From an uncultured SAR86 cluster bacterium (GTDB taxonomy: Bacteria > Pseudomonadota > Gammaproteobacteria > Magnimaribacterales > D2472): a stretch of 40,778 nucleotides of DNA. The translations under genes were made by a program, and so were the position numbers. The stretch covers positions 1 through 40,778 of the forward strand of contig CACPCZ010000010.1 in the NCBI GenBank assembly GCA_902632555.1, in the 5' to 3' direction. Under the pieces are notes generated by a model, which saw only the letters and a list, made by a program, of their open reading frames with translations, did no database searches and was not told where the DNA came from. Shown here one piece after another: positions 21,246 through 39,580 of this stretch; positions within the stretch are counted from its first letter, which is position 1; every line of letters begins with the position of its first letter.

Positions 21246-24200
21246 ATGAAAAAAATTCTACTAGCTTTATTGCCTGTAATTTTTCTTACTACTACCTTAT
21301 CTGCAAACGTTGATACAACTGCGCGTATTAAAGGTTCTGTAAATGTTGATGGTGCTTCAATTGAAGCAGTACACATGCCAACAAATACAACAAAAACTGT
21401 AGTGAGTTCAGCTTCAGGTAACTTTAATATTAACTTCCTTCCAATTGGCGGACCATACAAAATAAAAGTCTCGAAAACTGGATATGTTACTCAAACAATT
21501 GATGTTGCAAGTTTGACAGTAGCAGAGCCACTGAAGATTGCTGTAAATCTTGTTGCTGATGATATAGATGAAGTACAAGTAATTGCATCTAAGGTCTCAA
21601 CATCAAAGGTTAACAGTGGATCAGTTCTTTCAAGCGAAAGAATTGCAAGTATTCCAACTATTACAAGGAATATAGCTGATTATCTTAAGTTTGATCCTAG
21701 AGTGAGCGTCAATGGTGCAAATGCTAGAAGTACTGAGATATCTGTCCTAGGAAAAAATTCAAGATTAAATGATTTCACAATTGATGGAATAAGTTTTAAT
21801 GATGCCTTTGGTCTAAATGATAGCGGTTTCGCAACAATGAAAAACCCTATAAGTATAGATTTTGTCGATGAAATTACAGTAGACATTACACCCTATGATG
21901 TATCAAAAGGTAATGCTACTGGTGGAACAATTACCGCGGTTACCAAAAGCGGAACTAATGAATTTCATGGATCTGTATATACAACATCAAGAGACAAAAG
22001 CAATGTTGGTGATCTTCCAAATGGTGAGGAATATGCCAATTTCGATGAACAAGCTTTAGCTTTAACCTTATCAGGCCCAATTATTAAAGATAAGCTATTC
22101 TTTTTTATTGGTTATGAAGAAAGTGAGGATACTAGGCCTAGTCTTTGGGGAACTGCCGATTCGAATGCAACGAACAAATGGGAAACTACAAGTGCTACGA
22201 TGAATGCTGTTGCAAAACATATGCTTGATACATATGGCTATACTGCTGGATCCTATAACAGTATTACTTTCCCAACTACCCAAGAGCAGTTATTGGTTAA
22301 ATTGAACGGTTCTATTAATCAAGATCATTCTGCTGAATTAATTTATCAGGTTACAGAAGATTCATTTTACTCAAATTATGATAGTTCAGCTGATCCAGTA
22401 TTCTCGAATAATTATTACGAAATACCTCCTGAAACAGAAAGGGTTACCATAAATATATATTCAGATTGGACAGATCGTTTCTCTACAAGAATTCGTTTTA
22501 GCGATCGTTTTTTTGAACAAGACGCAAACTCAGGTGATGGAGGTTACGGTGGGTTATTTCCAGAGTTCCATATTTACGAGGGAGATGAAATTATCTATGT
22601 CGGAAGTGATAGATATAGAGGACATAACCTTATTGAAGTTGATCAACAATTAATGTCAATAAAAGGTAATTTAGATCTCGATAATCACTATATTACATTT
22701 GGATACGAAACTGATTCATCATCTATCTATAACTCTTTTATAAATAGATATACAGGTGAAATTAATTTTGCTTCATTAGATGATTTTTACGCAGGTAATC
22801 ATAATTTGGTTTATACATTTGCTGTATCCACTGATGCCGGAGGACCTTTTTCTCTTGTAAGAGATGATCCTGCTTTACCTGCTGCTAGATTCGATATTGA
22901 TGAAACTATCATGTACATTCAAGATGAATGGCAGGTAAATGATAATCTTAGTATTGCATTTGGTGTGAGACATTATGAGTTTGACATCCCACAACAAGCT
23001 TTACTTAATGAAAGTTATTTAAATAAATTTGGATTTAGAAATAATGCACAAGTTAGTTATAAGATAACTCAACCAAGATTTTCATTCGATATGGATGTAA
23101 GCGAGTCATTATTTGGTAGTAGCGAAAAAATAGTAGCTGCTTCTTTAACTGGTGGCTATGGCTTATTCCATGGAAGATTGCCAAAAGTTTTCTTCAGTAA
23201 TGGTTTTGGTAGAAGTAGTGTTGATACTTTCTATAGCCAATTCTTATATTGTGCAGGACCAATTCCTAATTTAAATTCTGGGGATACAACTGGAGTAACA
23301 GATCCAAGATTCTTCTGGTATAGAAGTAGTGCTTCAACATGTCCTTTAAGGGATGCAGGTAGAGCTTATTGGGGATTCACTCATGGCACAGATCCAAACT
23401 TTGAAGGTCCTTCAACATGGAGAGGTAATGTGAAATTAGATATGTTAACTGCTAACGGTTATGATATATCTGTAGAACTTAACCGTGATATAGTCAGAAA
23501 AGATGTAGATTTTAAAGACTATAACTATACTGTTGAGGGAATTCTTGCTGATGGAAGACCAGTAACAGATAGTAATGAAAACACTTATATTACTAATACA
23601 AGTCATGGTGGCGGATATTCATTAACTACTGCAGTTCAAAAAAGTTTTGATAATGGCCTTGAATTTTATTTAGGTTATACAAACATGGAACAAAGAGATG
23701 TAGCAGCTATGACTTCAGCACAACATAGCTCATCATATGGTTACCAACCTAGAGGTTATGGAGAGATAGTTCCTGCAGCAAGATCATCATTCATGAATGA
23801 GCATAAAATGGTTCTTGCTTTATCTTATACAACTCAAATAATTGGTGACAATGACACTACTTTCTCATTATTGGCAATTAGAAAATCAGGTGAGCCACAT
23901 AGTATTACATTTAATGGCAGATCATTTAATGGTTCAGGTAGAAGCGGATATGACTTAGCTTATATCCCAACTGGAGTTGGAGATCCTAATGTTGTATTTG
24001 CATCAGACGCAGTAGCAAATGATGTTATGGATTTTGTTAATTCAAAAGGATGTATATCAAAATATGCAGGTCAAATAATTCCAAGAAACACATGTGATAA
24101 TCCATGGCAAGGAAGAATTGATCTAAGAATTACACAGGAATTAGCCCTAAACGATAAGGGACATAAGCTTGTAGGATATCTTGATATTCAAAACCTATAT

Positions 24201-24395
24201 AACCTGTTATCTAATTCAAAAGGTTGGGCTCAGGAAGTAAACTACAACGTTAGTAGAGCAATTGACATTAGTGGAGCTGATGACAATGGAAGATATCTTA
24301 TCGACGGTGTTGATACTGATGATAGTTATTTCTTCTCTACAAGTAATGGACAATCTATGTGGCAAATCAATTTTGGTTTAGCATATAGGTTCTAA
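21246..24395 (+). CDS. Large TonB-dependent receptor with N-terminal carboxypeptidase-regulatory-like domain (Oar-like)
   Basis: A 1049-residue outer-membrane receptor. It has a signal peptide (about 1-20), a carboxypeptidase-regulatory-like beta-sandwich at about 22-105 (ARIKGSVNVDGASIEAVHM), a plug domain at about 110-230 (DEVQVIASKVS, FDPRVSVNG, TIDGISFNDAFG, ATGGTITAVTKSGTNEFHG), then a barrel ending QINFGLAYRF with a terminal phenylalanine. This architecture is that of Oar-type receptors for large substrates such as peptides or polysaccharides. A surface loop carries paired cysteines near 676 and 698. It has a GAGAGGA Shine-Dalgarno and its own terminator. The substrate is unknown. Confidence 0.9.
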   Translation: MKKILLALLPVIFLTTTLSANVDTTARIKGSVNVDGASIEAVHMPTNTTKTVVSSASGNFNINFLPIGGPYKIKVSKTGYVTQTIDVASLTVAEPLKIAVNLVADDIDEVQVIASKVSTSKVNSGSVLSSERIASIPTITRNIADYLKFDPRVSVNGANARSTEISVLGKNSRLNDFTIDGISFNDAFGLNDSGFATMKNPISIDFVDEITVDITPYDVSKGNATGGTITAVTKSGTNEFHGSVYTTSRDKSNVGDLPNGEEYANFDEQALALTLSGPIIKDKLFFFIGYEESEDTRPSLWGTADSNATNKWETTSATMNAVAKHMLDTYGYTAGSYNSITFPTTQEQLLVKLNGSINQDHSAELIYQVTEDSFYSNYDSSADPVFSNNYYEIPPETERVTINIYSDWTDRFSTRIRFSDRFFEQDANSGDGGYGGLFPEFHIYEGDEIIYVGSDRYRGHNLIEVDQQLMSIKGNLDLDNHYITFGYETDSSSIYNSFINRYTGEINFASLDDFYAGNHNLVYTFAVSTDAGGPFSLVRDDPALPAARFDIDETIMYIQDEWQVNDNLSIAFGVRHYEFDIPQQALLNESYLNKFGFRNNAQVSYKITQPRFSFDMDVSESLFGSSEKIVAASLTGGYGLFHGRLPKVFFSNGFGRSSVDTFYSQFLYCAGPIPNLNSGDTTGVTDPRFFWYRSSASTCPLRDAGRAYWGFTHGTDPNFEGPSTWRGNVKLDMLTANGYDISVELNRDIVRKDVDFKDYNYTVEGILADGRPVTDSNENTYITNTSHGGGYSLTTAVQKSFDNGLEFYLGYTNMEQRDVAAMTSAQHSSSYGYQPRGYGEIVPAARSSFMNEHKMVLALSYTTQIIGDNDTTFSLLAIRKSGEPHSITFNGRSFNGSGRSGYDLAYIPTGVGDPNVVFASDAVANDVMDFVNSKGCISKYAGQIIPRNTCDNPWQGRIDLRITQELALNDKGHKLVGYLDIQNLYNLLSNSKGWAQEVNYNVSRAIDISGADDNGRYLIDGVDTDDSYFFSTSNGQSMWQINFGLAYRF

Positions 24396-29254: not shown

Positions 29255-30130
29255 TTAAATGGTTTTAATAATATTTATAAATTCAGTATTTAGCTGCTTC
29301 GGGCTTTCATAATATGGAAAATGCCCAACATCATCAAGTATTGTTATATCATCTTCATTTGCAATCTTTACCAAAACATTATCTGGGTTAAATCTGGCAA
29401 GTTTATCTTTTTCGCTAAAAATAAATTTTATATTTTTTAATTTTCCTATTTGATCTTCACTTAATCTATATGAATTACAAGACTTTAGATCAATTGAGCT
29501 TATTTCTTTTTCAGATTGATTAAATAATCTCTTTAAGGGATAAAGTTTAATTTCTCTTTCCGGGTCATCCTCAACTGTTTTTGTTCCATAAGGCGACTTT
29601 ATTACTCCTTTTGATCTCCCATAGAAACCTGAGCCCATAGTTCCAAATCCTTTGGTTTTAATCTCTGTTTTTGGAAATTTATATATTCCATACTTCATCA
29701 AAAATTCTACTGCTTGATCTAAGTTGCCTTTTGCATAATCAAGTAGCATGTCTCCAACTAGAAAAGGATATGCAATATTCATACAAATGGTAGATTTATG
29801 ATCACATTTTGTAGATAAATCTAGTGCGACCAGTCCGCCCCAGCTATGACCAACAAGAATAGGATTTTTAATTTCTAGTATATTTAATACATTCACACAA
29901 AATTCTGAATGTTCTTCAATTGAATAGAGAATTGGGCCAGATGTATAACCATGTCCTGGCAGATCAAAACCAAGGATGTTGTAGTCTGAGTGAATTGGCT
30001 TAAGATCAATCATTGATAAGACTCTATGATCCATACCGGCGCCAGGAATAAAAACTATAGTTGGTTTTTTTGAATCAAAAGGATTTTGTTCAAAAATATG
30101 CGCTCTATGATTTTCTAAATTTAATTGCAT
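29255..30130 (-). CDS. Alpha/beta hydrolase, unknown substrate
   Basis: A 291-residue serine hydrolase. FIPGAGMDHRV near 27-37 is the oxyanion loop, VGHSWGGL gives nucleophile Ser96, SEKDKLARF carries the acid and DVGHFPYYESP the histidine. It has no signal peptide. Its ATG lies inside the end of the BCCT transporter gene (26-bp overlap, other frame), so it is translated from that message and may process what the carrier imports. An internal cap region rich in lysine and glycine (about 150-200) sets it apart; no close family is recognised. Confidence 0.8.
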   Translation of the reverse strand: MQLNLENHRAHIFEQNPFDSKKPTIVFIPGAGMDHRVLSMIDLKPIHSDYNILGFDLPGHGYTSGPILYSIEEHSEFCVNVLNILEIKNPILVGHSWGGLVALDLSTKCDHKSTICMNIAYPFLVGDMLLDYAKGNLDQAVEFLMKYGIYKFPKTEIKTKGFGTMGSGFYGRSKGVIKSPYGTKTVEDDPEREIKLYPLKRLFNQSEKEISSIDLKSCNSYRLSEDQIGKLKNIKFIFSEKDKLARFNPDNVLVKIANEDDITILDDVGHFPYYESPKQLNTEFINIIKTI

Positions 30131-31592
30131 TTTTGATGATTGAAATTACTAAAAGAATGTTAATGAATATCAATGGTACAGAAAAAATTACTAAAAGCCA
30201 CTTAAATGATTCTCCGCCTCCAATAAACATAATCAATGCTGGTTGAATTACAAGCATTAAAGCAAAAAATAATCTTAGATTTCTTGAAGGTTCATTTTTA
30301 AAGTTCTTCATGGCAGCGGTAGCAAGAATATATGATGAAGAGTCATATGTTGTGCACAAAAATATAATAGATATCAATCCAAACATAATCAAAAATATAT
30401 TTCCATAGTTTATAGATTGTATTGTTTGAACAACAATTGTTTCTAGCCCGACATTGCCAGAGGCATAAATCAACGGTGAATTCAAAATATCGTTTTCAAA
30501 AAGATAAATTGAAGTATTTCCTAAGATACCAATATGTAAAAAACAACCAAGTGATCCTATAAATAAAGACCCAAAAATGATTTCTCTAATCGATCTTCCA
30601 TTAGAAACATTTACGATAAAGGTTCCTACAGCTGGAGCTAAAGCAAAATACCATGCCCAATAAAAAACTGTCCAATCAAGGCTGTACTTAGAAGAACTGA
30701 TACTAAAATCAATATAATTTGAAAACATATAGCCTATTGGCTCAATAGAATTAGTTGTTATATATTTTGTTGGTCCTGTAATGAATACTAGCGATAGAAA
30801 TATTAAAACGAATATTATATTTAAGTTGCTTAACCTTTTAATACCTTTTTGAATACCAAGATAAACACTCGTTCCAAAAATTATCAAACACAAAACCAAG
30901 GCTGAAAAATCAAGAAGAATATTTTTTTTAATAGAAAAAACTTCAGATATCACTGCTGAAATTAATGGAAATGATAAAGTTAACCCTACACCGGCTCCTG
31001 TAAGAATTGCACCTATAAAAAGAAAATCCAATATATTTCTTACAAGACCATTTTGATTTTTAAGCAGTATTCCTGAAAAAGTAAGAGATGAATCTGGTTT
31101 ATTCATAAGTGCAAAAGCAAATGCGATTGTTGGAAGGCAATATATTGCCCAGCCAGTAAGACCCCAATGAAAAAGCGGATAGGCCCTTGATAGAAGTAAA
31201 TTACCATCATAATCATTTGAGACTATGTCTAAAGGATTATTAAAATATGCTAACCACTCAACAGTTGACCAATAAAGTAATGCAGCTCCCATGCCGGTCG
31301 CAAACAACATAGACGACCATGAAAAAAATGAAAATTTTGATTTATTTTCTAAATTTAGCCTTAGTTTGCCTAGTGGAGATAAAGCTACAATTAACAGAAA
31401 AAGAAAAATTATAAAACTTATAATCAAATAATATTTTTCAAAATTAATTGCAAAAAAATCATAGATATATTTAAGAGTTTCAGCACTTCCTTTTATGTCG
31501 CTTAAAACATATGATGAAAGTGAAATTAAAAACAAAAATGTAATTGATATTACGGAAATGTTCCATAAAGGATTTATTTTTAATTTAAACAT
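30105..31592 (-). CDS. BCCT family transporter, variant
   Basis: A 495-residue carrier with about 12 helices, of the betaine/carnitine/choline family, which also takes DMSP. ATGMGAALLYWSTVEW near 97-112 is the glycine-rich helix 3 segment, and WTVFYWAWYFALAPAVGTFI with NVSNGRSIREIIFGSLF follows near 305-345. Compared with well-studied members, the usual WAWW-x-x-W tryptophan box reads WAWYFAL and the E-P after helix 3 reads E-W. Substrate and ion coupling may therefore differ. It is co-transcribed with an alpha/beta hydrolase. Only 25 bp separate its ATG from the divergent nuclease start. Confidence 0.87.
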   Translation of the reverse strand: MFKLKINPLWNISVISITFLFLISLSSYVLSDIKGSAETLKYIYDFFAINFEKYYLIISFIIFLFLLIVALSPLGKLRLNLENKSKFSFFSWSSMLFATGMGAALLYWSTVEWLAYFNNPLDIVSNDYDGNLLLSRAYPLFHWGLTGWAIYCLPTIAFAFALMNKPDSSLTFSGILLKNQNGLVRNILDFLFIGAILTGAGVGLTLSFPLISAVISEVFSIKKNILLDFSALVLCLIIFGTSVYLGIQKGIKRLSNLNIIFVLIFLSLVFITGPTKYITTNSIEPIGYMFSNYIDFSISSSKYSLDWTVFYWAWYFALAPAVGTFIVNVSNGRSIREIIFGSLFIGSLGCFLHIGILGNTSIYLFENDILNSPLIYASGNVGLETIVVQTIQSINYGNIFLIMFGLISIIFLCTTYDSSSYILATAAMKNFKNEPSRNLRLFFALMLVIQPALIMFIGGGESFKWLLVIFSVPLIFINILLVISIIKNAIKFRKS

Positions 31593-31617: not shown

Positions 31618-32307
31618 ATGATAACAAATATTTATAACTATCCCGAGCTTATAAGAAAAGATAAAGATATAGGTCGATTTTATATTGACTCAAATGAGAA
31701 TCTTGTACCCAGTGTTACAACTGTTTTGAGTAGGACGTCTAAAAAATCAGATTCAATTAAAGAATGGAGAAATAGAGTTGGAGAAGAAGAGGCTGATCGG
31801 ATTACTAAACAAAGTACTGACATCGGAAGCATGGTCCATGAAGCTCTTGAGAATTACCTATATGGAAAAGATTGGGAAAATTTCTCTGATGATAATGATG
31901 GCATGATGGCAAAAAAAATTACACAAAAGTTTATTGAGGTTGGTTTAAACTCCATTTCGGAAGTATGGGGTCTTGAAGTAGGATTGATATTGGATGGCTT
32001 ATATGCAGGAACTGCAGATTGTATTGGTAAGATAAATGGTATTTCAACAATAATAGATTTTAAAACAGCGAGAAGGATAAAGAAAAGAGAATGGATAGAA
32101 GATTATTTTCTCCAATGTTGCGCTTATGCAAATGCACATAATGTGATGTTTGGAACTCAAATTAATCAAGCAACAATCTTGATGGTAGATAGAGATTTAA
32201 TTTTTAGGGAATTTACCGTGAATCCAAAAGAGTTTGATCACCTTACGAAATTATGGAAAAGAAGGTTAATAGAGTTTCATAAAAAATTTAACAATGACAT
32301 ATCATGA
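31618..32307 (+). CDS. PD-(D/E)XK exonuclease, MGME1/phage-type
   Basis: A 229-residue nuclease. LVPSVTTVLSRT near 29-40, KEWRNRVGEEEADRITKQST near 48-67 and GSMVHEALENYL near 70-81 match phage-type single-strand exonucleases related to mitochondrial MGME1. The active site is visible: Glu near 120, Asp134 in AGTADCIG, and Asp147-x-Lys149 in IIDFKTAR, with a following EDYFLQCCAYANAH helix that bears the conserved Gln-x-x-x-Tyr. The frame is open from 31495, but that part would overlap the reverse BCCT gene; the ATG at 31618 gives the family N-terminus. It overlaps the carboxylesterase by 4 bp (ATGA). Confidence 0.82.
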   Translation: MITNIYNYPELIRKDKDIGRFYIDSNENLVPSVTTVLSRTSKKSDSIKEWRNRVGEEEADRITKQSTDIGSMVHEALENYLYGKDWENFSDDNDGMMAKKITQKFIEVGLNSISEVWGLEVGLILDGLYAGTADCIGKINGISTIIDFKTARRIKKREWIEDYFLQCCAYANAHNVMFGTQINQATILMVDRDLIFREFTVNPKEFDHLTKLWKRRLIEFHKKFNNDIS

Positions 32308-33824
32308 AATTTAATATCCTAATTAGCGCGTTAATTATTCAAATCAACCTTTTTAGCGATGTTAGCTTTAGTGTTGATGAGACTAAAATCATTGGGCAAA
32401 TTTCAAATGATAAAAAAACTCAAAGTTTCTTGGGAGTTCCATATGCTGAGCCACCGATAGGAGATTTACGTTGGAAAGAACCAATACCAAAAGTATTTAT
32501 TAAAGATGAATTCTTTGCTGATAGATTTGCCTCTGCTTGCATGCAAGAGGAGAGAATTGTTGATTGGTATAAAGGAGTAGCTATTGGTTTTGGAGGAGAT
32601 CCTAATTACATCTCTAAACCAGACATCAGCGAAGACTGTTTATATCTAAATATCTGGAGACCAAACAATACTTCAGATTCATTGCCAGTTCACGTCTTTA
32701 TTCATGGTGGTGCAAATAAAGCTGGCTGGGCCTATGAACCTAATTATGTTGGTGACAAACTAGCATCAAAAGGAATTATTGCTGTTACAATCTCATATCG
32801 ACTGGGTATTTTTGGCTTCTTTTCACATCCTGAATTATCTAAATCCAATTTTGCTTTGTTAGATATAATATCTGCATTGAAATGGATAAAAAATAACATC
32901 CATTTAGTGGGCGGAGATCCAAACAATATTACTATTGCTGGTGAATCTGCAGGTGCTACAAACATAGAACATCTTCTAGTGTCTGACCTTAGTGCAGGAT
33001 TGTTCAGTAAGGCAATTCATCAAAGCGCTGGATGGTCAATATCATACGAACTCGATAATGAATCTCCTGCAAAAAACGCTTTGAAGTTAGCATTAAAATT
33101 ATCAAGTAATAATGAGGCTTTAAGTATTAATGAATTAAGAAAGATTAATTCAGAAAAAATTCTCGTTACAGCAAACGAGATATTTAAACTGGGTTATTGG
33201 TCAGTTTTAGACAATCATAGTATTAAGAAACCTATTAAAGAATCATTTGCTAATGGTGATTTTCATAATGTAGATTTAATTATTGGTTCTAATGCAGATG
33301 AAGAACTTATGTATATAGATAATGAAAGCTTTAAAGAATTAGTTGAAGAAAGAGAAGAATGGGGCATATATAACAAAGTTATTGATTTTGAAGATTTATC
33401 AAATCACCTTGAAAACGATTTAGAAAGAATTAATTTTGTTTTGTCATCAATTAATTATGTTTGTCCATCTTTTTATATTGCTGATCAAGTTTCATCTGTA
33501 ATAAATAATAAGGTCTGGTTTTATTCATTCGATAAAGTAAGATTTGGTAAAAAAGCCCAAGAGATGGGCGCCTATCACGGGGCAGAATTACCTTATATTT
33601 TTGACACACATGATGCATGGTTGCCAACATCTTATCAAGATGAATACCTCACTAAAATTATTCAAAATTCTTGGTTAAATTTCATGAAAACAGGTAACCC
33701 TAATATTGATGAAATAGATTGGCCAAGACATAAGCCCTCACAATTTAAGGTCTTATCATTTGATAAAGAATTAAATTCAAAAATTCATGATTCTAAAGAT
33801 TTCTGTCTCTCGTTAAATATTTAA
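32304..33824 (+). CDS. Type-B carboxylesterase, exported
   Basis: A 506-residue esterase/lipase of the cholinesterase-like family, with a signal peptide (about 1-18). FLGVPYAEPPIGDLRWKEP near 42-60 is the family start, EDCLYLNIWRP near 110-120 its second signature, and GESAGATN holds the nucleophile Ser215. The catalytic His is likely in AYHGAELPYIF and the acid in the GSNADEE segment. It probably cleaves esters in the periplasm or outside the cell. It overlaps the nuclease by 4 bp, a surprising operon mate, and precedes a TonB receptor. Confidence 0.87.
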   Translation: MKFNILISALIIQINLFSDVSFSVDETKIIGQISNDKKTQSFLGVPYAEPPIGDLRWKEPIPKVFIKDEFFADRFASACMQEERIVDWYKGVAIGFGGDPNYISKPDISEDCLYLNIWRPNNTSDSLPVHVFIHGGANKAGWAYEPNYVGDKLASKGIIAVTISYRLGIFGFFSHPELSKSNFALLDIISALKWIKNNIHLVGGDPNNITIAGESAGATNIEHLLVSDLSAGLFSKAIHQSAGWSISYELDNESPAKNALKLALKLSSNNEALSINELRKINSEKILVTANEIFKLGYWSVLDNHSIKKPIKESFANGDFHNVDLIIGSNADEELMYIDNESFKELVEEREEWGIYNKVIDFEDLSNHLENDLERINFVLSSINYVCPSFYIADQVSSVINNKVWFYSFDKVRFGKKAQEMGAYHGAELPYIFDTHDAWLPTSYQDEYLTKIIQNSWLNFMKTGNPNIDEIDWPRHKPSQFKVLSFDKELNSKIHDSKDFCLSLNI

Positions 33825-33864: not shown

Positions 33865-33894
33865 TTAATATCAGTCATTTAATTGGGGAATTTT

Positions 33895-36186
33895 ATGAAT
33901 ATATTTCACTTACAAAATGCTCACAAAGCATTAAATACACTTACAAAAAAAACACTTTATGCATCTTCTATGATTTTAGCAGCTGTAGCATCTGCTCAGG
34001 AAAACGATCAAGTTGAAGAGGTTATTGTTACAGCACAGAAAAAATCTGAAAATTTACAAGATGTTCCTATCAGTGTAACCAACCTTTCTTCCGATGATCT
34101 TGAAAGTTTAAATATTAGAGATTTTTATGATTATGTAAATCAACTGCCTTCTGTTCAAGCGATTCAAAGAAGACCAGGGGATGGAACTCTTTTTATGAGA
34201 GGAATTTCTGATGGTGGATCAGGCAACAATCAATCATTACAAGGGTCCTCTGTTGCGACATATCTTGACGAAACTCCTGTAACAATGATTTCAGATAATT
34301 TAGAAGTTCATATGTATGATATTGAACGAGTTGAAGCACTAGCTGGACCTCAGGGTACTTTGTATGGAGCTGCATCTCAAGCAGGTAACTTAAAGATAAT
34401 TACAAAAAAACCAACTGGTGAATTTGATTCTGGTTTCAATGTTGGAATTGAAAGAACGTCTAATGGTAGTCCAAGCAATATGGTTGAGGGTTTTGTAAAT
34501 ATCCCACTTGCAAAAAATGCTGCGGTCAGAATAGTCGGCTACGAAGATAAGGATGGTGGTTACATAGATAATGTCCCCGATACATTAAATTATCCATTAT
34601 TTGGGAGCGTAACAAATGCAGATATGGTTGAAGAGGATTTCAATGAATCAATTAAATCAGGTTTCAGGGCAGCCCTCAGGGTAAATCTTGGTGATTCATG
34701 GCTGGTTGATGCATCGGTTGTAGGACAAGAAATGGAAACTGATGGTATGTGGGATCATGATCCAGATAGACTTGGAAACTATAAAATCGGTCGTTTCACA
34801 GATGACTATCAAGATGATGACTTTACAAGGTTTGCATTAACAGTTGAGGGTGATCTGGGTTTTGCAGATCTTACATTTGCAACTTCAAGCATGGAAAAAG
34901 ATTTTGAATCAGTTTCAGATTATTCTCATTACTCTCTTAGCTCAGCATATGTTGAAGCTTACTATACTTGTTATACATACTATTTTTATGCATGTGTTGA
35001 TCCAAGTATGAGTTTTGATAATGACTCAACAGTTGAAACAGATTCGACTGAAATAAGGTTATCTTCTAAAGATAATGCCAAATTAAACTGGATAATTGGA
35101 TCATTTGTTGGTGAACTTGAAACTGACTACAATACAAGGTGGAGAGTAAAAGATCTTCCAGCTGGCGCAACCGTTCCAACCAGCGAAAATGCTTATTATC
35201 AAACAGACCAAGTTAGAGTAGACGAGGAGAAAGCAGTATTTGGTGAACTATATTACCAAATATCTGATAAATTAAATTTAACTGTTGGACACAGAAAATT
35301 TGATTATGATTCTAAATTAAATGGTTTTGTTGGTACTATTTTCTATAATCCAAATCCAACAATGTCTGCAATAGGTGCATTTGCAACTGAAAGACCAGAT
35401 AATATTGATGCTACTCTTTCTGGAAGTGACAGCGTTACAAAGGTTAATCTATCATATAACGTAAATGATAATTCTATGGTCTATGTTTCAAGGTCAGAAG
35501 GATATCGACCAGGTGGAACTAATAGATCTACTGAAGTTGGTGCCACTTATGATCCTGATTTTCTTACAATGACTGAGTTAGGATTCAAGTCTATTATTGC
35601 TGATGGGAGTCTGAGGCTAAATGGTGCGTTCTATCTATCTGAATGGGATGATATTCAACTTGGTTTCTATGATCCAGCAATTTCTTTATTAGCACTTGTC
35701 GACAATGTTGGTAGAGCTGAAAGTGATGGCTTTGAAATAGATGTTAAATATATAGCAAACGATAAACTTTCAATTTCCGGCGGTTTAGCAAAGAATGATG
35801 CAGAGCTTCGAGAAGATTACTTTCTTCAAGGAACTCTTACAGGAGAAAAGGGTCAAGACTTACCGCTAACACCTGACTTAAAATACAATTTGACAGTTAA
35901 ATATGAACCAAATGATAAGAGATCAATTCAATTTAACTATGTATATGTTGATGAAATGTGGAATGAGCTTGATATTAATAACAGAGTTCTTCAAGACAGT
36001 TATGGTCTTGCAAATTTATCATTTTCATTTGAGGTAAATGATAGTTCTTCAGTTCAATTATATATTGACAATGTTTTTGATGAAGTAGCTGAATTATATA
36101 TAAACAATCAAGATGTTTTGACCCTCACGAGCGTTAACAGGCCAATGACTCTTGGACTAAAATATACATGGAATTTAAAAAAGTAA
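33895..36186 (+). CDS. TonB-dependent receptor
   Basis: A 763-residue outer-membrane receptor. After a signal peptide (ending near ASAQ, about residue 37) comes a TonB box EEVIVTAQKK, then a plug domain (about 50-160; LPSVQAIQRRPGDG, GSSVATYLDETPV, RVEALAGPQGTLYGAASQAG) and a barrel ending GLKYTWNLKK, without a final aromatic. This is the iron-complex receptor branch, common in marine heterotrophs for varied substrates. The ATG at 33895 is preferred over a TTG at 33883 because GGGGA precedes it correctly. A loop near residue 355 is rich in tyrosine and has two cysteines (YYTCYTYYFYACVDP). Confidence 0.9.
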   Translation: MNIFHLQNAHKALNTLTKKTLYASSMILAAVASAQENDQVEEVIVTAQKKSENLQDVPISVTNLSSDDLESLNIRDFYDYVNQLPSVQAIQRRPGDGTLFMRGISDGGSGNNQSLQGSSVATYLDETPVTMISDNLEVHMYDIERVEALAGPQGTLYGAASQAGNLKIITKKPTGEFDSGFNVGIERTSNGSPSNMVEGFVNIPLAKNAAVRIVGYEDKDGGYIDNVPDTLNYPLFGSVTNADMVEEDFNESIKSGFRAALRVNLGDSWLVDASVVGQEMETDGMWDHDPDRLGNYKIGRFTDDYQDDDFTRFALTVEGDLGFADLTFATSSMEKDFESVSDYSHYSLSSAYVEAYYTCYTYYFYACVDPSMSFDNDSTVETDSTEIRLSSKDNAKLNWIIGSFVGELETDYNTRWRVKDLPAGATVPTSENAYYQTDQVRVDEEKAVFGELYYQISDKLNLTVGHRKFDYDSKLNGFVGTIFYNPNPTMSAIGAFATERPDNIDATLSGSDSVTKVNLSYNVNDNSMVYVSRSEGYRPGGTNRSTEVGATYDPDFLTMTELGFKSIIADGSLRLNGAFYLSEWDDIQLGFYDPAISLLALVDNVGRAESDGFEIDVKYIANDKLSISGGLAKNDAELREDYFLQGTLTGEKGQDLPLTPDLKYNLTVKYEPNDKRSIQFNYVYVDEMWNELDINNRVLQDSYGLANLSFSFEVNDSSSVQLYIDNVFDEVAELYINNQDVLTLTSVNRPMTLGLKYTWNLKK

Positions 36187-36200
36187 ATTAACCACACATT

Positions 36201-36231
36201 AAAGCCATGTTATTAAACGTGGCTTTTTTTT
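36201..36231 (+). terminator. Intrinsic terminator between TonB receptor and TPR-sulfotransferase
   Basis: AAAGCCATG and CGTGGCTTT form a 9-bp stem with one T-G wobble around a 7-base loop (36201-36225), followed by a run of T. It ends only 6 bp before the GTG start of the next gene, so its downstream arm and T tract take up the whole ribosome-binding region. Confidence 0.85.
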
Positions 36232-36236
36232 AAAAA

Positions 36237-37808
36237 GTGAAAAAAAAAATCCCAAAGCAACTTTATGAAGCTTCTGTTCTCGTAGCATCTAATCAATTAA
36301 AAAAAGCAGAGCCAATTCTAAAAGATTATTTGAAAGATAATCCTTTAGATGTTAACGCCATGAAGTTATTAGCAGATATTGGCATTAAATTTAGAGCATA
36401 TTTTGATGCTGGAAATCTTTTAACAAGAGCGCTTGATCTTGAGCCAAACTTTCATGCAGCAAGGTTGAGTTATGCAAATCTCTTACATGCAAGACAATTA
36501 CCATTTGAATCCCTAAAGCAAATAGAAATATTACTCGAAAACGATCCAAAAAATATTCATTACCTGACATTAAAAGCTGTTAATTATGCACTAGCTAATC
36601 AACATGATGATGCAATTTATTTATTTGAATTAATTGAAAAAAAATTTCCTGGTAACAATCAGCTTTATCTTCATTATGGACATACATTGAGGGCTGTTGG
36701 AAGAATTGATGAAGCTATAAAAGCCTATAAAAGATCAATCAAATTCAAGATAAATTATGGTGAGGCATATTGGGCTCTTGCAAATCTCAAAACTTATGAA
36801 TTTAGTGAATCTGATAAACTAAATATCAATAAACTACTTCATAACAAAAATATTTTAGTAAAAGATTACTATCATCTTCTTTTTGCTCTTGGGAAAGCTG
36901 AGGAAGATAAAAAAAATTATAAAAAATCTATAGCAGCATATATGAAAGGCAATCAAGTAAAAAGCAATGAAGTGCAATGGAATATTGAGAACTTCCATAA
37001 AGATTGTAATGAAATTAAAGAGTTTTTTACTAAAGAGTTCTTTGAAGAGAGAAAACATTATGGGTCTAAATTGGATGATGTTATATTTGTTGTTGGCTTA
37101 CCGAGATCAGGATCAACTCTAATTGAACAAATTTTATCTTCTCATTCTCTGATTGAAGGAACAACTGAACATCAAAATATAATTGCGCTTTCAAGAAAAA
37201 TTTCAAAAAAAAGAAAAGCTTCAGATATATCTCAATATCCAAGTGCATTGTCAAAAATTTCTGAAGAGGATATAAAAATAATGGGTGATCAATATATTAA
37301 CAACACACTAGACCAAAGAGTGACGGATAAACCTTACTTTATTGATAAGATGCCTAATAATTTTATACACATAGGCTTGATTCATCTTATTTTACCAAAT
37401 GCAAAAATAATTGATGCAAGAAGAAATCCTATGGATTGTTGCTTTAGTTGTTATAAACAATTATTTGGATCTGGACAAGGTTTTACATATAGCTTAAACA
37501 GAATAGGAAATTATTATCTTGAATACATTTCACTAATGAAGCATTGGGATAAAGTATTACCAGGAGTAGTACACAGGGTGATTTATGAAGATATGATAAA
37601 TGATACAGAAAATCAGATTAGAAGATTAATTGATTTTTGTGATCTAAGCTTTGAAGAAAGTTGTTTGGAATTTTACAAGAACAAGCGCGCTGTTAGAACT
37701 CCAAGTTCAGAGCAGGTACGACAGCCTATATATAAAAAAGGAGTAGGCCAATGGAAGCATTATGAAGAGTGGCTTTCACCTCTCAAACAAATCCTAGATG
37801 AAAAATAG
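36237..37808 (+). CDS. Tetratricopeptide-repeat sulfotransferase
   Basis: A 523-residue protein of two parts: about six TPR helices pairs at 5-245 (typical NFHAARLSYANLLHA and YLHYGHTLRAVGRIDEAIKAY repeats), then a sulfotransferase domain from about 280 to the end. VVGLPRSGSTLIEQILSSH near 286-304 is the PAPS 5'-phosphosulfate loop and YEDMINDTENQIRRLIDFC the later helix. It probably transfers sulfate from PAPS to a protein or sugar, with TPR giving partner specificity. It starts GTG at 36237 with no Shine-Dalgarno, directly after a terminator. TonB receptor plus TPR-sulfotransferase is a recurrent pair. Confidence 0.87.
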   Translation: MKKKIPKQLYEASVLVASNQLKKAEPILKDYLKDNPLDVNAMKLLADIGIKFRAYFDAGNLLTRALDLEPNFHAARLSYANLLHARQLPFESLKQIEILLENDPKNIHYLTLKAVNYALANQHDDAIYLFELIEKKFPGNNQLYLHYGHTLRAVGRIDEAIKAYKRSIKFKINYGEAYWALANLKTYEFSESDKLNINKLLHNKNILVKDYYHLLFALGKAEEDKKNYKKSIAAYMKGNQVKSNEVQWNIENFHKDCNEIKEFFTKEFFEERKHYGSKLDDVIFVVGLPRSGSTLIEQILSSHSLIEGTTEHQNIIALSRKISKKRKASDISQYPSALSKISEEDIKIMGDQYINNTLDQRVTDKPYFIDKMPNNFIHIGLIHLILPNAKIIDARRNPMDCCFSCYKQLFGSGQGFTYSLNRIGNYYLEYISLMKHWDKVLPGVVHRVIYEDMINDTENQIRRLIDFCDLSFEESCLEFYKNKRAVRTPSSEQVRQPIYKKGVGQWKHYEEWLSPLKQILDEK

Positions 37809-37991: not shown

Positions 37992-38885
37992 ATGAAACCA
38001 CTTATTTTAGACTCAGCTCTTGGAACAGAGCTTGAAAACCGCGGAGAATACTTACCAAGTTTTAAAACTTCAATTTGGTCGGCTTATTCCTTAATACATA
38101 ACCCAGAGGTTATCAAACAAATTCATATTGATAATATTGAGGCTGGCGCAGATATAATTACAACTTCAAACTATCAAGCGACTCCAGAATTACTTAAAAG
38201 AGAGCCCTCAGCACCGTCTTTTAAGGACTTAGCAAAAAAATCTCTAGAACTTTGTCATGAAGCTGTAATTAAAACAAATACCGATACTAAAATTGCTGGA
38301 TGTTATCCACCTATCCATGTAACCTTTAGGCCAGACCTTACACCAAAAGAAAAAGTTTTAAAAAGTTTTTATAAGCATCTAGGTAAAATTTATCACAAAA
38401 ATGTCGATGTCATTATTTGTGAAACAATGTCTTCAATATATGAGGGCAACATTGCAGCAACAACTGCAAAAGATTTTTCTAAAAAAGTCTGGTTAAGTTG
38501 GACCACTAGAGGTAATAAGTTAAATAGGTTACCAAGCACTGAACTTCTCCATGATGCAATTTTAAAGTCAGTAGATTTAGATATTGATTGTCAACTTGTA
38601 AATTGTGTCCATGCAGATACCGCAACTTTAGCTATTAGTAGATTACAGAAAGAAAAAAGTTTTGGTATATATGCAAATTCATCAGTTTATAAGAAAAACG
38701 AATTAGAGGGCTTTATCAGTGATTCAGATGAGTGGCATTATCATAATCATAAGCATATTAATTCAATTGAGTATGGAGAACATGTTAAGGAGTGGATAAA
38801 CAAGGGAGCAGCAGTTGTAGGTGGTTGTTGTAGAACAACCACCGATCACATTAAAATAATTAAAAAAATTGTTGATAACCTATGA
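37992..38885 (+). CDS. mmuM: Homocysteine S-methyltransferase
   Basis: A 297-residue zinc enzyme that methylates homocysteine to methionine, with S-methylmethionine or a similar sulfonium as donor. The N-terminal LDSALGTELENRG near 6-18, TTSNYQAT near 57-64 and the zinc ligands Cys205 (NCVH), Cys279 and Cys280 (GGCCRTTTDHI) are present. There is no cobalamin or folate domain, so it is the MmuM/BHMT-like short type. A GGAG site is 8 bp upstream. It overlaps the peptidase-E-like gene by 4 bp (ATGA). The methyl donor could also be a betaine or DMSP-type compound; that is open. Confidence 0.85.
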   Translation: MKPLILDSALGTELENRGEYLPSFKTSIWSAYSLIHNPEVIKQIHIDNIEAGADIITTSNYQATPELLKREPSAPSFKDLAKKSLELCHEAVIKTNTDTKIAGCYPPIHVTFRPDLTPKEKVLKSFYKHLGKIYHKNVDVIICETMSSIYEGNIAATTAKDFSKKVWLSWTTRGNKLNRLPSTELLHDAILKSVDLDIDCQLVNCVHADTATLAISRLQKEKSFGIYANSSVYKKNELEGFISDSDEWHYHNHKHINSIEYGEHVKEWINKGAAVVGGCCRTTTDHIKIIKKIVDNL

Positions 38886-39580
38886 GACAGATAATTGCTA
38901 TTGGAGGTGGTGGTTTTGGGAGAGAAATTAATGATCTTAAAATAGAAAAATATATTGTTAACCAAGCTCCTAACAATAATCCTAAAATATGTTTTATTCC
39001 AACAGCAACCGGTGATGATCAAGCATATATTGAAAATTTTTATAAAGCATTTGATTCGCTCGGATGTGAAACCTCACATATAGACTTTTTTAAAAGGACG
39101 ATAAATTTACAAGATCATATCAACCATCAAGATATAATCTATGTAGGTGGAGGCAATACAAAAAGCATGCTTGCTGTATGGAGAGAGTGGGGACTTGATC
39201 AGATTTTATTAGATGCATATAAAAATGGTGTAATTATGAGTGGTGTCAGCGCTGGAGCAATCTGTTGGTTTGAGAAAGGTATAACAGATTCTTGGAAGGA
39301 GCATCAAGCTATTTTGCCTTGCCTTGGTTTTGTCAAGGGGATATGTTGTCCTCATTATGATGAAGAGCCAGAGCGGATACCTTTTGTGAAAGAAATATTA
39401 AATCAAAACAAAATCGATAAATGCATAGCCATTGAGGGTTATTGCGCACTTCATTTGATTGATGATATTGCAAAGTTTGTAGTTAGTTTTGGTGATGGCA
39501 ATAATAGTTACATGGTGACTAAAAATAACTCTATAATAGAAAACAAATTTATCGAAGAAGTAGAGTATATACAGTTATGA
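38882..39580 (+). CDS. Peptidase E (S51)-like protein of the class I glutamine amidotransferase fold
   Basis: A 232-residue protein. IAIGGGGF begins it, IPTATGDD is near 39-46, YVGGGNTKSML near 87-97, and SGVSAGAICWF near 120-130 places the nucleophile Ser123, matching dipeptidase E, which cleaves Asp-X dipeptides. Length fits the family. It is translated from an ATGA overlap with mmuM and its end overlaps the following membrane gene by 4 bp, so three genes share a message. A peptidase role is the default; some relatives act on cyanophycin-like dipeptides. Confidence 0.83.
   Translation: MRQIIAIGGGGFGREINDLKIEKYIVNQAPNNNPKICFIPTATGDDQAYIENFYKAFDSLGCETSHIDFFKRTINLQDHINHQDIIYVGGGNTKSMLAVWREWGLDQILLDAYKNGVIMSGVSAGAICWFEKGITDSWKEHQAILPCLGFVKGICCPHYDEEPERIPFVKEILNQNKIDKCIAIEGYCALHLIDDIAKFVVSFGDGNNSYMVTKNNSIIENKFIEEVEYIQL

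Follow-up and report, generated by a model that had tools for sequence, protein, structure and literature searches.

A recurrent pair of TonB-dependent receptor and TPR-sulfotransferase in a SAR86 bacterium, with a tyrosine-rich loop as candidate sulfation site

The receptor and enzyme genes

An uncultured SAR86 cluster bacterium (Gammaproteobacteria; Magnimaribacterales; family D2472) carries, side by side, a gene for a TonB-dependent receptor and a gene for an enzyme that joins tetratricopeptide repeats (TPR) to a sulfotransferase domain. Both lie in contig CACPCZ010000010.1 (C10) of assembly GCA_902632555.1, analysed here over 40,778 nucleotides (the window); the source genome amounts to 1.04 Mb in 35 contigs, with 83% completeness and 32.5% GC. 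The original prediction, made from the sequence without database searches, had placed a TonB receptor beside a TPR-sulfotransferase, and both genes are found where it put them, with their domains matched by Pfam. The receptor gene (33895..36186, + strand) starts at an in-frame ATG within an open reading frame (ORF) that opens with TTG at 33883 and encodes 767 amino acids counted from there. Behind an N-terminus that by eye resembles a signal peptide, its product passes the Pfam models for both plug (Plug, 57.1 bits) and beta-barrel (TonB_dep_Rec_b-barrel, 96.4 bits); by these domains it is a TonB-dependent receptor, for which TonB-energised uptake is a prediction. The best match of its profile among solved structures is the pesticin receptor 4epa (which we take to be FyuA), likewise composed of plug and barrel. 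Where the tyrosine-rich loop described below aligns, at the start of the second matched part, 4epa differs in having no matching Tyr/Cys pattern, and we know of no sulfotransferase partner for it. The genome encodes 12 receptor plugs, and the other 11 receptors match that of the window at no more than 154 bits, whereas 69 of 72 receptors partnered with the enzyme do so at 200 bits or more. Judged by these scores, the partnered receptors are a distinct subfamily, of which the window's receptor belongs to type a.

The enzyme gene (36237..37808, + strand) follows after a spacing of 50 bp and encodes, from a GTG start, 523 amino acids in which, unlike in the receptor, no signal peptide is recognisable by eye; the enzyme is therefore probably cytoplasmic. 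Pfam matches define a TPR region at about residues 9-184 (36261..36788, + strand) and a Sulfotransfer_3 domain (PF13469, 161.7 bits against a curated cut-off of 27) at residues 283-474 (37083..37658, + strand). When 30 enzymes were aligned over this domain, G287, P289, R290, G292-L295, E311, D370, K371, P373-N375, R395 and R396 were invariant in all 30, L288 and S404 were kept in at least 90%, and position 291 varied. From characterised sulfotransferases we take these residues to serve catalysis and the binding of 3'-phosphoadenosine 5'-phosphosulfate (PAPS), and those of the PAPS-loop and catalytic motifs are kept equally in the window's lineage and in the other enzymes. The active-site motifs are intact, and sulfate transfer is predicted. 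Compared by sequence with solved structures, residues 276-485 match the CurM sulfotransferase (4gbm, E 8.2e-6), presumably a polyketide-synthase domain with another substrate and one without a TPR match, while residues 281-506, but not the TPR part, weakly match the protein-tyrosine sulfotransferase 8w5z (E 8.5e-4); animal protein-tyrosine sulfotransferases work in the Golgi lumen. The best natural match of the TPR part in the PDB is O-GlcNAc transferase, which likewise joins a TPR superhelix to a transferase domain for protein substrates and differs in catalytic domain and donor. Elsewhere in the same genome, a second TPR-sulfotransferase, 44% identical, is cut at a contig end, which leaves its receptor side out of view (L057:3599-5008, contig C21), and a third Sulfotransfer_3 protein of 372 amino acids (L058) has no TPR match along its length.

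Recurrence of the pair and of its loop

Within the family, 107 genomes were searched. At E 1e-3 the enzyme search gave matches in 85 of them, of which no fewer than two (G034, G062) match over TPR stretches only, and receptor homologues occurred in 61 at E 1e-60. For 72 of the 80 places where a family receptor was found, an enzyme place lies within 5 kb, in all 72 downstream and on the same strand; the eight unlinked receptors are all on contigs without an enzyme match (contig ends were checked for three of them, and two others start within 5 bases of the contig start on the minus strand). The pairs fall into a type a (receptor of 751-776 and enzyme of 521-533 amino acids), a type b (mostly 809-890 and 647-696) and a type c, in which two opposite-strand genes, for an abhydrolase and a BCCT transporter, stand between receptor and enzyme. 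In type a the receptor is directly upstream of 21 of 24 enzymes (enzyme start minus receptor end, 26-62 bp), the remaining three being at a contig start (L106, L108) or next to a receptor cut at the contig end (L113).

Beyond the family, a receptor-partnered enzyme drew 254 matches, and we read the loci of the best 80 (the named loci). They were chosen by the enzyme alone and as a sample therefore lean to its clade; some genomes occur twice, one record is labelled Actinobacteria, and the best-scoring clade ORF was used per locus, which in L195, L197, L198, L204 and L205 was a second copy and not the one matched. Counting receptors cut by contig ends, 66 of the 80 show a same-strand receptor no more than 300 bp away and four more have one within 3 kb; ten show none in view, seven of them truncated. 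For comparison, nine of 404 other ORFs of at least 200 amino acids in these loci are receptor-like. The receptor is upstream in 60 of the 66 cases and downstream in six, so that the linkage has survived rearrangement. Hosts include Rhodanobacter, Dyella, Steroidobacteraceae, Caulobacter, Novosphingobium and Acetobacteraceae. In a survey of 369 gammaproteobacterial genomes, which scored at most four and at most two candidates per genome and so may have missed some, 11 genomes had the receptor subfamily (E 1e-50) and 12 had the enzyme clade (E 1e-100); each of the 11 receptor genomes carries the enzyme clade, and 11 of 12 conversely (Fisher p 3e-20), the twelfth (G437) having its enzyme near a receptor of another subfamily (L093). 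Receptor and enzyme distances correlate across 52 representative pairs (r 0.83; none of 2000 permutations was as high). These counts confirm that receptor and enzyme are a real, recurrent pair, associated more than by chance.

Five distant TPR-sulfotransferases, 28-33% identical, have no receptor within their loci (L101-L105), and four others, about 28-40% identical, do (L175, L182, L185, L186); in L175, L185 and L186 the receptor belongs to another subfamily, is divergently transcribed from the enzyme and has a common Tyr/acidic stretch (LEYSYE.FPTFTA...) before an ELRL strand. Further TPR-sulfotransferases adjoin other surface proteins: on a plasmid of Enterobacter sp. 638 one stands in series with a GT8 glycosyltransferase and an autotransporter (L085:5431-11695), and on an Asticcacaulis plasmid a receptor, a family-2 sulfotransferase, an Asp/Asn beta-hydroxylase and a TPR-sulfotransferase follow one another (L082:3444-9599). 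Hydroxylase-like ORFs occur near the pairs in L098-L100 too. Four clade enzymes with no receptor in view (L221, L222, L225, L244) have a common upstream ORF of about 437-474 amino acids, a possible second context.

The feature that singles out the partnered receptors is a Tyr/Cys-rich loop, DYSHY...YYTCYTYYFYAC-VDP, at residues 342-370 counted from the ATG (34918..35004, + strand). It is probably extracellular, as it forms a long connection ahead of a conserved EIRL strand. The original prediction had noticed a tyrosine-rich loop near residue 355, and YYTCYTYYFYAC indeed starts at residue 356 from the ATG, or 360 of the 767-residue ORF, the numbering used hereafter. All 21 aligned type-a receptors have the loop, one with its tyrosine run partly replaced; Y347, Y350, Y360, Y361 and Y364 are invariant, and Y366 and Y367 are kept in 20. 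Across 66 partnered receptors of all types (six of the 72 were left out, three being short and three of other subfamilies), D346 is kept in 98%, Y347 in 97%, Y350 in 100%, Y360 in 92% and Y361 in 97%; the segment after YY varies in length while the motif positions stay constant, and many named loci have the pattern DYTNY...YYQC...CYSP.

A regular expression for D-Y-x-x-Y ... Y-Y-x-C matched 114 of 125 partnered receptors (the named loci contributing the 59 longer than 700 amino acids from their 66 adjacent loci), three of 27 unpartnered ones and one of seven partnered receptors of other subfamilies, and for the strict form DY..Y...YY the corresponding counts were 108, one and none. The unpartnered set comprises the 11 other receptors of the window's genome and 16 from other genomes with no enzyme match in the 10-14 kb read. 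Most of the 11 partnered misses that were examined still have a loop rich in tyrosine, in which E or A takes the place of D or the spacing is different; in L215 and L250 no loop was located. Among representatives at 60% identity, the clustering by which alone these p-values account for kinship, the motif is found in 34 of 42 partnered and two of 23 unpartnered receptors (p 2e-8), and the tyrosine fraction of the segment is 0.152 in 19 partnered against 0.046 in 23 unpartnered representatives (p 1e-7). The loop is thus far from equally frequent without the sulfotransferase, which was the pattern named in advance as speaking against the original prediction, and the alignments support its conservation in receptors that have this enzyme clade as partner. 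The sole unpartnered receptor with the strict motif (L167, in genome G249) has no enzyme match within 5 kb; the same genome has a clade enzyme (L086) that shows no receptor over the 12 kb read, the contig starting 2.7 kb from it, as would be seen if a single pair had come apart.

The sulfate donor

Canonical PAPS synthesis was not found in the window's lineage. ATP sulfurylase was found in none of the 61 family genomes searched, nor was a credible kinase for adenosine 5'-phosphosulfate (APS) or a credible CysD or CysH; although the genome of the window reaches a completeness of only 83%, 19 genomes of the family sample reach at least 90%. The APS kinase model PF01583 does match 54 of the 61, in open frames of 136-158 amino acids; a first impression that these are APS kinases was set aside on their scores of only 20.9-37.6 bits. 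The cut-off of TIGR00455 was passed by none of four family genomes and by all ten enzyme-bearing genomes outside the family, which have a true APS kinase. PF01507 matches 24 of the 61 (frames of 186-537 amino acids), ten of them over the cut-off, the best at 29.1 bits; we take these to be TtcA- or GuaA-type proteins, and all presumably score unlike true CysH or CysD. The original prediction had held that a lack of PAPS synthesis genes would tell against it, and for the canonical genes this is what the lineage shows. Its sulfation idea thus gains from the recurrent pair and from a loop that tracks the enzyme clade, and loses by the missing canonical donor genes.

In six loci (L016-L019, L056, L077) the PF01583 match is a protein of 135-138 amino acids whose gene overlaps one for a nucleotidyltransferase of 129-130 amino acids; in the window's own genome (contig C5, L056:8068-8860) a 136-residue APS-kinase-like P-loop protein overlaps a 129-residue nucleotidyltransferase of the NMNAT type. 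The best solved match of the short kinase is the probable APS kinase 2yvu (E 2.2e-7), and it retains residues that we believe bind APS; its partner resembles nicotinamide mononucleotide (NMN) adenylyltransferase. The short nucleotidyltransferase occurs in four of the 369 gammaproteobacterial genomes, of which two belong to the family, and in five phage records. Kinase and nucleotidyltransferase alike match phrog_10255, a family of fused phage 'kinases', one member of which adjoins a NADAR gene in Stenotrophomonas phage vB_SmaS_Bhz60, and for this reason the short pair was not counted as PAPS synthesis. Over the 61 genomes it is weakly associated with the sulfotransferase (p 0.015, enzyme at E 1e-20, the genera not being independent). 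Such a pair might replace the canonical genes. Either the lineage has another source of PAPS, or its enzymes have another role, or it has no ability to sulfate; the intact enzyme motifs favour another source.

Possible substrates and the surrounding genes

The single likeliest mechanism, which we put forward tentatively, is that the enzyme sulfates the loop of its own receptor before export. The two genes would form a dedicated unit of outer-membrane receptor and cytoplasmic TPR-sulfotransferase, with the receptor as the putative substrate: the TPR superhelix would hold the newly made, unfolded receptor while the C-terminal domain moved what is presumably sulfate from PAPS onto at least one tyrosine, the presumed acceptor, of the loop D-Y-x-x-Y ... 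Y-Y-x-C ... C, and after export the loop would reach the cell surface with its charge tuned for ligand binding. In its favour speak the linkage and co-occurrence of the two genes, the distinctness of the receptor subfamily, the loop motif, the correlated distances, a layout like that of the protein-modifying O-GlcNAc transferase, the TPR-sulfotransferases found beside other surface proteins, and the retained motif residues of the enzyme. In the window's lineage, this mechanism would depend on PAPS that the textbook genes do not supply. The wider proposition, that throughout the subfamily, in Gamma- and Alphaproteobacteria alike, the adjoining enzyme sulfates tyrosine on a conserved surface loop of the receptor and also that the lineage's donor is unconventional, perhaps made by the short kinase and a HIGH-type nucleotidyltransferase, is doubtful when both parts are taken together.

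Several points weigh against sulfation of the receptor, beginning with the missing canonical donor genes. No outer-membrane protein is known to us to be tyrosine-sulfated in the cytoplasm. Three clade enzymes in the named loci have at least 4 kb on either side and no receptor in view. The correlation of receptor and enzyme distances may simply mirror shared organism history. Substrate tyrosines of sulfation stand beside acidic residues, and the motif begins D-Y and tracks the partnered subfamily; its bearers, however, nearly all belong to that one subfamily, so that shared descent and shared function are inseparable, and common descent alone could produce the motif counts. The seven receptors of other subfamilies that stand beside related enzymes lack the motif, bar the one loose match. 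Tyr-rich loops can also be aromatic sites for ligand binding.

This last point leads to the best surviving rival, possible but on balance doubtful, by which the enzyme sulfates a small-molecule or peptide cargo of the receptor, either made and recaptured or modified after uptake, and the Tyr/Cys loop is an unmodified ligand site such as an aromatic cage. Conservation of the loop inside one receptor subfamily is what a binding site would show, and neighbours of the pair in the family (BCCT transporters, esterase, alpha/beta hydrolase, peptidase S51, gamma-glutamyltranspeptidase and homocysteine S-methyltransferase) resemble the uptake and breakdown of small organic compounds; pairs in some other genomes, too, have BCCT genes close by. 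A small substrate, however, would make the TPR region unnecessary; no biosynthetic cluster was noticed adjoining the pair; and the non-receptor neighbours vary, a BCCT gene being near the pair in only four of the 80 named loci, so that they indicate no single general substrate and no common pathway is visible. It is unlikely that the enzyme instead modifies another surface component, a polysaccharide or another exported protein, with the receptor merely co-regulated: some more distant TPR-sulfotransferases do stand apart from receptors (L101-L105) and one has a GT8 glycosyltransferase gene as its neighbour, but inside the clade the receptor is by far the commonest neighbour, and no glycan gene was noticed right beside the pair in the window. 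Quite improbable, too, is that the fold no longer sulfates in this lineage, PAPS synthesis having been lost, and now binds PAP or another nucleotide or serves as a receptor chaperone; the donor-gene counts and the contrast in APS kinase between family and outside genomes would fit, while the retained PAPS-loop and catalytic residues argue for retained chemistry. Chance neighbourhood of two large gene families, one with 12 plugs in this genome alone, is extremely improbable and was dropped on the linkage and co-occurrence counts (72 of 80 family places, 66 of 80 named loci, 11 of 11 genomes).

Sulfation of tyrosine is, to our knowledge, hardly known in bacteria, and RaxST of Xanthomonas was the only case that turned up in the open-access literature. 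As described in two reports, RaxST is a PAPS-dependent sulfotransferase that acts on tyrosine in vitro and whose gene accompanies export genes, and its substrate is the small secreted precursor peptide RaxX, served by type I secretion and by dedicated PAPS genes, raxP and raxQ (PMC4216712, PMC6637879). The window shares with that system a sulfotransferase-type enzyme, here predicted from sequence, in a Gram-negative bacterium; it differs in having an outer-membrane receptor as the partner, a TPR region in the enzyme and a lineage without canonical PAPS genes. Neither a RaxX-like peptide nor type I secretion genes were recognised among ORFs of at least 60 amino acids near the pair, in the course of an inspection that included no dedicated search. 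No description of such a receptor-enzyme pair or of a sulfated outer-membrane transporter turned up in the open-access literature, subscription papers being mostly outside the search; one report concerns asst genes, another sulfotransferase family, one of them with a TonB gene nearby (PMC10932419), and a second merely tabulates a COG label (PMC12494485). A pair conserved across two proteobacterial classes, together with a diagnostic loop, would turn the sulfation of receptors at the cell surface into an idea of general reach that is open to direct test and, if true, would bear on ligand choice and on recognition by phages or colicins. The puzzle is a lineage without canonical PAPS synthesis that retains an apparently intact PAPS enzyme.

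The window holds a second TonB-dependent receptor (21246-24395; 1049 amino acids, plug match 32.3 bits), for which the comparison with the paired receptor listed no similarity. Nearer the pair, a BCCT-family transporter is encoded at 30105..31592 (- strand), a kind of gene that turns up repeatedly close to pairs of the family and also of some other genomes. A carboxylesterase-family ORF (32304..33824, + strand) lies upstream of the pair and likewise adjoins it in several type-a loci. Downstream are a homocysteine S-methyltransferase-family ORF (37992..38885, + strand), a neighbour in several family loci, and a Peptidase S51 ORF (38882..39580, + strand), a neighbour in many.

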